This document shows, piece by piece, positions 7,947-24,601 of a DNA stretch of 33,939 nucleotides (position 1 is the first letter of the stretch; each line of letters begins with the position of its first letter). The notes below the pieces were generated by a model. The model was not told where the DNA came from. It searched no databases and saw nothing but the letters and a program-made list of their open reading frames with translations. This DNA is from Prochlorococcus sp. AG-355-I04 (GTDB lineage Bacteria > Cyanobacteriota > Cyanobacteriia > PCC-6307 > Cyanobiaceae), in the NCBI GenBank assembly GCA_003280915.1, contig QCDL01000013.1, forward strand, positions 1 to 33,939, written 5' to 3'. Made by a program: the position numbers and the translations under genes.

Positions 7947-8672
7947 TTAAGTTATCGATAACTGCCAACGCTTCTTTAAATAATTACAATAATCACACTT
8001 TAATGAAGGTTTGGGGAAATTATCCGAGCGTAATAAATTAACCGTATCAATTATCTTATTTTCTACCCATGAAGTAGAACAATCTAATTTAATTAGATGT
8101 ACGTCAAAATTTAATTGGTTATTAAATAACTCTTCATTTTTCTTTCCATTGAAATATAAAAGATAAGCTTCATTAGCCACTTGAAAACCATTTTTTTTAA
8201 ATAACCACTGATACATTTCTAATTGTCTCTTATAGGCTTTTGCATATTCGTATTTATTAAAAGTCTCAGACCAATCAAAATTATTTCTAGAAGTTGCTTT
8301 CACATCAACAATAATAAGATCACCATTTTTTTTCTGCCAAATATCATCCACAGCACCACCAAAATCATAGTTGTGTTCTATTGACAGATATCTTATGCCT
8401 TGAAAATTACTTCTCCAACGTTCTAAATCTTTGTGTTTGAAAGGAACAGCATCAATACCATGTTCAATAAATAAAGGATGGGGCTCCTGAATTTTTCTGT
8501 AATAATCAAATTCATTTTTACATAAGTTATCTACAGCTATATTTAAAGTAAAAGGTAATGATGGAGGTTTTATTTGATATTTTTTGTCAAGTACACAACA
8601 TCTCGGACAACTTAGATATTTCTCAACAGTAGATCGACTTAATTTAATAATCTCGCTCATTAGAGTTAACAC
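7947..8672 (-). CDS. RecB/Cas4-like PD-(D/E)XK nuclease with Cys cluster
   Basis: Predicted DNA nuclease of the PD-(D/E)XK superfamily. The catalytic signature is visible: D109/D110 in GAVDDIW, then D123-V-K125 in LIIVDVKAT, then Q150xxxY154 (QLEMYQW), as in RecB-family and Cas4-like exonucleases. Cysteines C22, C25, C26 near the start and C226, C229 near the end could bind an Fe-S cluster, as in Cas4 and AddB (inference from spacing). No CRISPR array or other cas gene is in the window. The start may be the ATG at 8672 or the in-frame ATG at 8660; the domain is complete either way. It is the last gene before the accessory segment, so it could serve repair or foreign-DNA processing, which is not provable here. 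Confidence 0.78.
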   Translation of the reverse strand: MLTLMSEIIKLSRSTVEKYLSCPRCCVLDKKYQIKPPSLPFTLNIAVDNLCKNEFDYYRKIQEPHPLFIEHGIDAVPFKHKDLERWRSNFQGIRYLSIEHNYDFGGAVDDIWQKKNGDLIIVDVKATSRNNFDWSETFNKYEYAKAYKRQLEMYQWLFKKNGFQVANEAYLLYFNGKKNEELFNNQLNFDVHLIKLDCSTSWVENKIIDTVNLLRSDNFPKPSLKCDYCNYLKKRWQLSIT

Positions 8673-8887: not shown

Positions 8888-9070
8888 TCAGTCACAGTAA
8901 ATTAAACAATTTTGATTGGTTGGATGTTCTCTACATTCTTTCTCCCAAAAGTTTTGAAACTCAGGGGTGCATTTCTCAAGTTCTTTTGGGGTTTCGTTTA
9001 GATTTGCACCTGCATAATTAAATGCAGTTAAGTATCTTGGAAGAATGTTAAATTGATTGAATAGTTTCAT
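8888..9070 (-). CDS. Small Cys-containing hypothetical protein
   Basis: A 60-residue protein preceded by a strong ribosome binding site: AGGAGGT ends five bases before the ATG, unusual in this A+T-rich window, where most genes lack one. The protein has an N-terminal region with LPRYLTAFNYAGANLNETP and a C-terminal half with four Cys (34, 46, 55, 59), ending in CLIYCD. I recall similar small proteins in Prochlorococcus genomes, often multi-copy and near high-light-inducible genes, but I cannot confirm that here. No signal peptide is evident. Four Cys suggest disulphides or metal binding. It sits just inside the left boundary of the accessory segment. Confidence 0.75.
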   Translation of the reverse strand: MKLFNQFNILPRYLTAFNYAGANLNETPKELEKCTPEFQNFWEKECREHPTNQNCLIYCD

Positions 9071-9317: not shown

Positions 9318-9413
9318 ACAAAAAAAGACCCCTATTTCTAGAGGTCTTTAATGGTTTTACTAAATCAAGTGTTTCCTTGTTTCCACTGTTTCAGTAAAAC
9401 CACTCCTTCACAC
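9318..9413 (-). ncRNA. Yfr2-family-like small RNA
   Basis: Read on the minus strand, a 9 bp stem GGTTTTACT/AGTAAAACC (9401-9393 and 9361-9353) encloses a loop with two GGAAACA motifs (GTGGAAACAAGGAAACAC). Within the loop, CAAG-GAAACA-CTTG can form a small inner hairpin. It is followed by a terminator (9349-9324, stem AAAGACC/GGTCTTT with an extended upper stem and a run of seven T). Stem, repeated GGAAACA loop and terminator match the abundant cyanobacterial Yfr2-type small RNAs as I know them. A TTATACAC promoter-like block lies at 9421-9414. The exact transcription start is uncertain; it may be a few bases downstream of 9413. Confidence 0.7.
9324..9349 (-). terminator. Terminator of the Yfr2-like RNA
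   Basis: Stem AAAGACC (9324-9330) / GGTCTTT (9343-9349), with three further pairs after one mismatch, flanked by a run of A on the plus strand (9320-9326) that gives a T7 tail on the minus strand. Confidence 0.7.
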
Positions 9414-9473
9414 GTGTATAAACTATGCCATATATTTCTTTTCCGTGGAAGGGGTAAATGGAATGTTACTTAA

Positions 9474-9489
9474 CTGTCACATGTGCCAG
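9474..9489. promoter_or_regulatory. Dyad-symmetric candidate operator
   Basis: CTGTCACATGTGCCAG is a 16 bp palindrome with one mismatched pair and a perfect CACATGTG core. It lies about 60 bp upstream of the Yfr2-like promoter block and just after the terminator of the second small RNA. It could bind a dimeric regulator. No factor can be named. Confidence 0.35.
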
Positions 9490-9509
9490 TTTTCCATATT
9501 AGGTTTTTT

Positions 9510-9583
9510 GGCAATAAAAAACACCCTAATTTAGAGAAAAGGGTGTTTGATTATCAGAAATTAGTGTGTGAGGAGTTTCTGAT
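9510..9583 (-). ncRNA. Small RNA with the Yfr1 signature motif
   Basis: The minus strand reads ATCAGAAA, then CTCCTCACACACTAA, then TTTCTGAT: a perfect 8 bp stem (9583-9576 and 9560-9553) that displays ACTCCTCACACAC. ACUCCUCACAC is the ultraconserved core of the cyanobacterial small RNA Yfr1. A 9 bp terminator stem (9548-9519) with a T-rich tail follows. Upstream lie TTATACAC (9591-9584) and a TTGTTC -35-like box 16 bp away (9612-9607). As I know it, Yfr1 has the motif unpaired between two stem-loops; here it sits in a loop, or at the 5' end if transcription starts near 9579. It is therefore called Yfr1-like, not Yfr1. Confidence 0.6.
9519..9548 (-). terminator. Terminator of the Yfr1-like RNA
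   Basis: Perfect 9 bp stem AAACACCCT (9519-9527) / AGGGTGTTT (9540-9548) with a 12-base loop. On the minus strand it is followed by TTTATT; with the stem's own T run this makes a normal intrinsic terminator. Confidence 0.7.
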
Positions 9584-9673
9584 GTGTATAACTTACTGGA
9601 ATAAAGGAACAAATATCTACAGTATTAATTCCTATTAATGCAAATTTGTTCTTTTTTACATTGACGGGATAAT
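9584..9673. promoter_or_regulatory. Divergent promoter region with shared inverted repeat
   Basis: Inverted repeat AAAGGAACAAAT (9603-9614) / ATTTGTTCTTTT (9644-9655), 12 pairs with one G-T wobble. The left arm supplies a TTGTTC -35-like box for the minus-strand small RNA (with TATACA at 9590-9585). The right arm supplies TTGTTC (9646-9651) for the plus-strand secreted-protein operon, 16 bp before GATAAT (9668-9673). The gap 9071-9701 otherwise holds only the RNAs listed and no protein gene that I can support. Confidence 0.4.
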
Positions 9674-23622: not shown

Positions 23623-24601
23623 AGAAGTATTAGAAGATATAGGGGAAAAAGAATTAATAAATAGGCTAGGAAAATTTATGCCTAAAAACCAAATTTCAGA
23701 TGATTGCGCTTTAATTAAAACTAAAAATGAAAATTTACTTGTTAATACTGATTCTTTGGTAGAAAATGTTCATTTCAATGACATTACTATTTGTCCTAGG
23801 GACCTTGGGTGGAAAGCAGTTGTAAGCAACATCTCAGACTTATTATCTAGTGGAAGCAAGAAAACTATTGGTATTACAATAAGCTTAGTTCTACCTCCTA
23901 GAACTGAGTGGATTTGGGTTGAAGAATTATACAAAGGAATAAATAAAGCATTAGCAGAATATGGCGGAGTAATTCTAGGGGGAGATTGCACAAAGGGGGA
24001 TGAAAAAATCATTTCAATTACGGCCTTAGGAATTCAAGGTGAACTTGAATTACGAAGAAACGCATGTAAACCAGGGGAGATAATCTTAACTACAGGAATT
24101 CATGGTCTTAGCAAACTTGGATTTTTGATACAAAATAAAATTAATTTCGATAACAAATTTTCTCTTAATGAAAGATTAATCATTAAGTCCATTGAACATT
24201 TTTGTCGCCCAAGAGTTTACCCAAATTTTCTAAATAATCTCCTCACAACTCGCTCCAACAAAAAAATAAGGAGAATAGGATGCACTGATAGCAGTGATGG
24301 TCTATTTCAAGCCCTACAAGATTTAGCAATAGCTAGCAACTGTAAAGCAATCATAAATTATGGGAAAATACCTAAAGATAGGGATTGGCCTAAAGGAGAT
24401 AAATGGGACGAATATTATTTTTTTGGGGGAGAAGATTATGAATTGGTTTTCTCATTGCCAAAAAAATGGGCGAAAAATTTATCTAAACTTGATAAAGATA
24501 TTAACGAGATTGGTTTTTTTACTCATGGTGAACCATCAATTGAATTTAAAGATAATAAAAAAAACGAATTATTTAATAACACACCTTTCAAACACTTTTA
24601 A
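23615..24601 (+). CDS. thiL: Thiamine-monophosphate kinase
   Basis: Phosphorylates thiamine monophosphate to the active diphosphate with ATP. The 328 residues carry the ThiL/PurM-type motifs: DDCALI (Mg-nucleotide Asp pair), VNTDSLVENVHF, LGWKAVVSNISDLLSSG, ILGGDCTKGD, CTDSSDGLFQALQDLA and FFGGEDYELVF. All expected Asp residues are visible. The start ATG lies inside the last codons of the cyclophilin gene (8 bp overlap), so expression is coupled. The stop codon directly abuts the stop of gap2 on the opposite strand, with no spacer. Confidence 0.93.
   Translation: MHKEVLEDIGEKELINRLGKFMPKNQISDDCALIKTKNENLLVNTDSLVENVHFNDITICPRDLGWKAVVSNISDLLSSGSKKTIGITISLVLPPRTEWIWVEELYKGINKALAEYGGVILGGDCTKGDEKIISITALGIQGELELRRNACKPGEIILTTGIHGLSKLGFLIQNKINFDNKFSLNERLIIKSIEHFCRPRVYPNFLNNLLTTRSNKKIRRIGCTDSSDGLFQALQDLAIASNCKAIINYGKIPKDRDWPKGDKWDEYYFFGGEDYELVFSLPKKWAKNLSKLDKDINEIGFFTHGEPSIEFKDNKKNELFNNTPFKHF

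Follow-up and report, generated by a model that had tools for sequence, protein, structure and literature searches.

Do two small RNAs that lie side by side on one strand, one of them complementary to the other, represent a new regulator encoded together with its own sponge? The question is raised by a Prochlorococcus contig of 33,939 nucleotides (the whole stretch analysed, hereafter the window), for which a first-pass annotation described a Yfr1-like RNA and a Yfr2-like RNA transcribed in tandem. Our analysis chiefly corrects this view: what looked like a new regulator-sponge pair is, with the explanation taken as a whole, very probably the published yfr10-yfr2 tandem of Prochlorococcus, a known arrangement in which Yfr2 sequesters Yfr1/Yfr10.

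Identity and layout of the two small RNAs

The Rfam scan of the window identifies the upstream RNA as Yfr10 (RF02362), with 102.9 bits against a cut-off of 43 at positions 9583-9506 and an alignment covering model positions 1-78 of 78. The Yfr1 model (RF01116) gave no row at this locus up to E = 1; Yfr1 itself is a separate gene of the same genome (G000), located at C7:33551-33604 and scoring 58 bits. The upstream RNA is thus Yfr10 and not the Yfr1-like RNA that it had been called. The gene (9506..9583, minus strand) starts with ATCAGAAACTCC, at a 5' end homologous to that of MED4 Yfr10 at 346661, and folds into a 5' hairpin, whose loop holds the motif, and then a terminator hairpin (9548-9519, minus). 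The Yfr1/Yfr10 motif ACTCCTCACAC occupies 9566..9576 on the minus strand. In the predicted fold its last ten bases are unpaired with a probability of 0.9-1.0 and the leading A with 0.3, and ACUCCUCACAC lies in a single-stranded loop on a stem, the feature by which the family is recognised.

The downstream RNA matches Cyano-1 (RF01701), which we take to be the Yfr2 family, with 71.4 bits against a cut-off of 41 (9417-9348). This equivalence is borne out here because the yfr2-type genes of MED4 carry Cyano-1 matches. In addition to scoring over the cut-off, the RNA has the GGAAACA repeat expected in the loop, where GTGGAAACAAGGAAACAC (9369..9386, minus) holds a double GGAAACA. The gene probably spans about 96 nt (9318..9413, minus), its 3' end following a predicted terminator hairpin and T-run (9349-9324, minus). 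The 5' end GTGTGAAGGAGT (9402..9413, minus) is the complement of the motif with one bulged A, and its first nine bases are predicted to be single-stranded.

Yfr10 and Yfr2 each appear to have their own promoter-like and terminator elements. The likely -10 element of Yfr2 is CATAGT (9422..9427, minus), with nATAnT at the same place in 55 of the 75 class-B loci described below. For Yfr10 it is probably TAAGTT (9590..9595, minus), with TAAATT at the equivalent place in a second Yfr10-Yfr2 tandem of the same genome (C7:61035-61249, L004), which is of class A and has the motif intact. The shared promoter block TTATACAC noted earlier does precede both RNAs in the window, but it is found directly before Yfr2 in only one of 75 class-B loci, the window itself, and we rejected it as a conserved box for Yfr2.

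Coordinates for yfr2-5 of MED4 have been published with 5' ends mapped by RACE (PMC1242208). The MED4 sequence used here is genome G015, taken as MED4 because the published coordinates of yfr2-5 and Yfr10 fit it to the base; the same yfr2-5 coordinates were also recovered by pattern search. In all four genes the mapped 5' end corresponds to the first G of GTGTGTAGGAG. By homology with these four RACE-mapped ends, Yfr2 of the window would start at 9413 and not downstream of 9402.

Strength of the complementarity

The complementarity first noticed in this stretch is exact to the base. ACTCCTCACAC (9576-9566) pairs with GTGTGAAGGAGT (9413-9402), both on the minus strand, through 11 pairs in which ACUCCU faces AGGAGU and CACAC faces GUGUG, with one bulged A. 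The duplex of the 11-mer with the 12-mer has an energy of -14.7 kcal/mol; when Yfr2 was shuffled by dinucleotides, 6 of 1000 sequences equalled it in binding the 11-mer. If Yfr2 folds by itself, bases 9404-9402 at the end of the segment sit in the foot of the first stem and full pairing therefore has to open them.

We ranked all 12-mers of the window on both strands as sites for the motif. The Yfr2 5' end came out as the third-best separate site, behind the complement of the motif itself and another at 24249(-). The energy of the whole-length duplex proved uninformative as a pairing test, with 246 of 1000 Yfr10 shuffles equally low.

The arrangement is already in print

The first-pass annotation was right in kind in proposing side-by-side complementary small RNAs of which one is able to sequester the other; its claim of novelty falls, as the arrangement was in print between 2007 and 2019. 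The motif upstream of Yfr2 and Yfr5 was noted in 2007 (PMC2190773). In 2008 Yfr10, Yfr12 and Yfr18 were reported to adjoin directly Yfr2, Yfr4 and Yfr5, respectively, with complementarity, and a 270-nt precursor holding Yfr10 and Yfr2 was reported in MED4 (PMC2518516).

The regulator-sponge interpretation of Yfr10/Yfr2 is also already published. According to Lambrecht 2019 (PMC6778093), Yfr1 and Yfr10 of MED4 are enriched with Yfr2, Yfr2 relieves Yfr1 repression in an E. coli reporter, and RNase E cleavage of Yfr2 is abolished upon binding of Yfr1 or Yfr10. The same source describes Yfr10 homologues encoded upstream of Yfr2 homologues in high-light strains and a broad targetome for Yfr2, which is itself cleaved by RNase E. 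For Nostoc, Yfr1-Yfr2 binding has been reported by EMSA (PMC6974561). The accessible text of PMC7368042 and PMC5069720 holds nothing further on the Yfr10-Yfr2 pair.

Genomic context

The pair sits between mrdA and guaA. Its placement on one mobile segment, as had been suggested, is unproven: the neighbouring proteins that were scanned include none of an integrase or transposase family, and the tRNA search of the window found no tRNA that could offer an attachment site nearby. We examined about 1.5 kb per side around 30 of the 75 class-B loci and found the ORF at 8888-9070 in 24 of 30, the Cas4-like nuclease in 1 of 30 and the three other window neighbours in none. The right-hand neighbours are thus variable.

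The ORF at 8888-9070 (minus), downstream of Yfr2, encodes 60 aa without a Pfam or PHROG match. The one at 7947-8672 (minus) encodes a PD-(D/E)XK nuclease that is weakly Cas4-like, below the NCBIfam cas4 cut-off.

Yfr2 classes and their upstream motif

A Cyano-1 match is present in 176 of 200 genomes of the genus. We sorted Yfr2 loci by their 5' end, using 149 distinct loci (164 matches minus 3 with short upstream sequence and 12 duplicates) that came from the window's own genome, the 30 best Cyano-1 matches, matches listed from titled contigs and four MED4 places. Among the matches listed, the exact motif lies upstream in 72 of 78 loci of class A (GTGTGTAGG), 2 of 23 of class B (GTGTGAAGG, the class of the window), 19 of 36 of class C (GTGAGGAG) and 5 of 12 unsorted loci.

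With the Yfr2 side fixed by the search patterns, the class-A and class-B counts inform on the neighbour only. The class-A pattern matched in 180 of 265 genomes, with the exact motif in 29 of 30 among the loci listed. A systematic class-B search of 266 genomes found 75 places in 74 genomes; there the motif of the neighbouring Yfr10 was exact in 13, carried only wobble-compatible changes in 24, was broken in 17 and had gaps in 4, and in the other 17 no Yfr10 could be recognised. The exact local partner is thus not kept in most class-B relatives.

At L118, L124 and L137, in class-C genomes, two or three Yfr2 copies share one stretch of 8 kb, with a distance of 419 bases in L118. Every copy has an upstream Yfr1-like motif, exact or within two mismatches, giving repeated Yfr10-Yfr2-like units.

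An 18-bp near-perfect palindrome, ACTGGCACATGTGACAGT (9473..9490, minus), lies 60-77 bp upstream of the Yfr2 start and is a candidate operator. Within three mismatches it is found in 69 of the 75 class-B loci, starting exactly at -77 in 58 of them, and it is kept in 15 of the 17 loci without a recognisable Yfr10. Among the class-A loci listed, TGTG[AC]CA[AG]TTAA is present within one mismatch in 28 of 30 and the palindrome in 1 of 30. A GntR regulator, PMM1637, is reported to control two yfr2 genes (PMC6778093), and it is a guess that the palindrome is its operator.

Local co-evolution versus pairing in trans

If complementarity is maintained between neighbours, the two sides should change together. 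From the 149 rows we dropped 32 with no motif within two mismatches or no recognised Yfr2 5' end and kept 117. Across 79 unique pairs, pairing with the own neighbour was no better than permuted pairing, which did equally well in 310 of 2000 trials; for permutation inside class A, B or C the numbers were 370, 1633 and 1119 of 2000. The compensatory changes between co-occurring neighbours for which the first-pass annotation had called were sought among the same 79 pairs, and none was found. Changes in the class-B motif were not enriched for those that keep the pair (32:19, where the terminator flank gave 80:35; p = 0.47 by Fisher's test), in a test on 36 distinct haplotypes that is weak since many loci share ancestry. 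There is no detectable co-evolution of the neighbours, a result that we present as new, together with the class-B counts for the adjacent Yfr10 and the upstream palindrome. The first-pass annotation had named a pairing that is not conserved as grounds for refutation, and this applies in part: in class B the neighbouring motif is exact in just 13 of 75 loci, and own pairing is no better than permuted pairing. The pairing looks like a family-wide property acting in trans that is not kept between these two neighbours, and the complementarity is best ascribed to the families as a whole.

It is conceivable that the Yfr2 5' sequence GTGTGAAGGAG owes its conservation mostly to other targets or to cleavage by RNase E at this site, the pairing with the neighbouring Yfr10 being incidental. 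Class-B Yfr2 genes without a recognisable Yfr10 do exist, an argument that is conditional in that the search pattern itself dictated the Yfr2 sequence, and the published targetome and RNase E cleavage (PMC6778093) point the same way. We nevertheless regard this explanation as unlikely: the separate Yfr1 of this genome can serve as partner, and the relief of Yfr1 repression by Yfr2 is itself published (PMC6778093).

Less probable still is the reading proposed for this locus at first, in which complementarity is kept specifically between the neighbours as a locus-encoded regulator-sponge module. Such a module would fit the frequent adjacency, the exact motif being present, among the matches listed, in 72 of 78 loci of class A and 19 of 36 of class C, and the finding that 24 of the 41 class-B motifs changed without gaps show only wobble-compatible changes. 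It does not fit the undetected co-evolution, a change spectrum that matches the flank, or the 17 of 75 class-B Yfr2 genes that have no recognisable Yfr10 while 15 of these 17 keep the palindrome. Nor does it fit MED4 yfr3, for which the 511 upstream bases analysed contain no copy of the motif with 3 or fewer mismatches.

Chance complementarity between two AT-rich RNAs, to which the third rank of the Yfr2 5' end in the window and the unremarkable whole-length duplex energy might point, is scarcely credible, because the match is conserved across the family and binding has been published, so that chance is already contradicted in relatives. The match is confirmed as real by this conservation and the published binding.

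In one class the adjacent Yfr10 has often decayed while Yfr2 and the putative operator stay, and the antagonism is therefore best studied as a multi-copy trans network.

A possible mechanism and the co-transcript

By analogy, the window copies would behave like those of MED4. Yfr10, and Yfr1 elsewhere, would act on mRNAs via ACUCCUCACAC; the near-complement at the Yfr2 5' end would sequester Yfr1/Yfr10; and binding of Yfr1/Yfr10 would shield Yfr2 from RNase E. With read-through, the two genes would also yield a joint co-transcript of some 266 nt, comparable to the 270-nt precursor known from MED4. Before processing, this co-transcript may be self-neutralised by cis pairing of the two segments, which processing could release.

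The pairing of the tandem co-transcript with itself is predicted only. In a model that excludes pseudoknots, the expected number of cis pairs in the ensemble, out of 11, is 8.3 for the window, 9.0 for MED4 and 9.3 for the genome's second tandem, and none of 60 shuffled motifs reached the value of the window. For the co-transcripts of MED4 and C7, the cis duplex is part of the minimum-energy fold. It is absent from that of the window co-transcript, for which a fold with the duplex is just 0.1 kcal/mol worse.

The motif in cyanophages

The same motif appears exposed in structured RNA outside long genes in some cyanopodovirus-like contigs and in the isolate P-SCSP1a. Viral contigs scanned for AAACTCCTCACACAC gave 47 matches, of which 35 lie inside open frames of at least 70 codons and five looked like structured RNA; as a rough estimate, chance alone would yield tens of AAACTCCTCACACAC matches. 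The L201 terminase shares 80.6% identity with its counterpart in Synechococcus phage S-SRP02, and the terminase of the L193 contig is 99% identical to that of L201. Between the terminases of L189 and Prochlorococcus phage P-SCSP1a the identity is 79.5%, and the L192 and L196 contigs carry relatives of the L189 enzyme (96 and 100%). Loci bearing the motif include L304/L305/L313/L355 (L201, L193), L494:3703, and L412, L417, L423 and others.

In the S-SRP02-like group, the intact 10-mer CTCCTCACAC lies between a hairpin and a terminator in all four terminator-holding loci, with flanks that differ in three, and a motif-free terminator search found the identical four contigs. L310 has a similar hairpin-motif-terminator layout, but the fold shows its motif partly paired. 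In relatives, the first P-SCSP1-type element is often without the 10-mer, and in L384 its long stem is absent from the fold. The second element of this group is a hairpin right in front of a small gene. A search by its stem alone gave 34 matches, 25 of them with the 10-mer, and the isolate P-SCSP1a has it as well.

Among named phages, 9.8 kb of S-SRP02 contained no copy within one mismatch and one two-mismatch site, P-SCSP2 has just a one-mismatch copy, and P-RSP2 has an exact copy within its terminase gene. With chance sites counted in, 7 of 80 and 17 of 79 loci of terminase relatives have the motif within one mismatch. None of 400 shuffled 11-mers was as frequent outside ORFs in either phage group, a control that is inflated by groups picked for the motif and by the relatedness of their members. 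Rfam returned no match up to E = 0.5 for five phage loci (four S-SRP02-like, one P-SCSP1-like), with Yfr1 not called, and no small RNA match for two ACTCCTCACAT sites in the host genome that look like chance occurrences. A blastn comparison of two phage stretches with the named phages gave no match. We also looked for Yfr2 in viral contigs: 20 contigs hold GGAAACAAGGAAACAC, and by eye none looked Yfr2-like around the match. Among the open-access papers listed for Yfr1 with cyanophage (five) and for cyanophage with small or noncoding RNA (20 of 18,726), and by term search in PMC9860041, we saw no report of the phage motif.

We tentatively hypothesize that T7-like cyanophages tap the Yfr1/Yfr2 axis, an idea that we hold possible and short of probable. 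Two cyanopodovirus-like groups, one near the MED4 phage P-SCSP1, carry CTCCTCACAC, predicted to be mostly unpaired, in structured RNA outside long genes, in one group as a Yfr1-like hairpin-motif-terminator RNA, and these RNAs might titrate host Yfr2 or mimic Yfr1, while the host co-transcript would be self-paired and freed by processing. A phage RNA polymerase promoter is a less likely explanation of the motif, as the complete P-SCSP1a genome has a single site for CTCCTCACAC when up to one mismatch is allowed. Should the phage elements prove to be genuine Yfr1-motif RNAs, they would amount to a naturally occurring perturbation of the Yfr1/Yfr10-Yfr2 network.

Comparison with known systems

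As described in PMC2518516 and PMC6778093, the Yfr10/Yfr2 tandem of MED4 has the same order on one strand, similar spacing, the motif and the 5' complement, and it is located in genomic island 1, a MED4 feature. The Yfr2 5' end reads GTGTGAAGGAGT in the window and GTGTGTAGGAG in MED4; the pairing in the window leaves a single A of Yfr2 bulged, whereas MED4 has a bulged C and a mismatch. The Yfr12-Yfr4 and Yfr18-Yfr5 pairs of MED4 (PMC2518516) show the same adjacency and complementarity as the window pair at other loci, with Yfr4 and Yfr5 starting with GTGTGTAGGAG and Yfr12 having a CAUAUAC change. Yfr1 (RF01116) shares with Yfr10 an identical 11-base motif, placed between two stem-loops in Yfr1 (PMC6778093) and in a hairpin loop in Yfr10.
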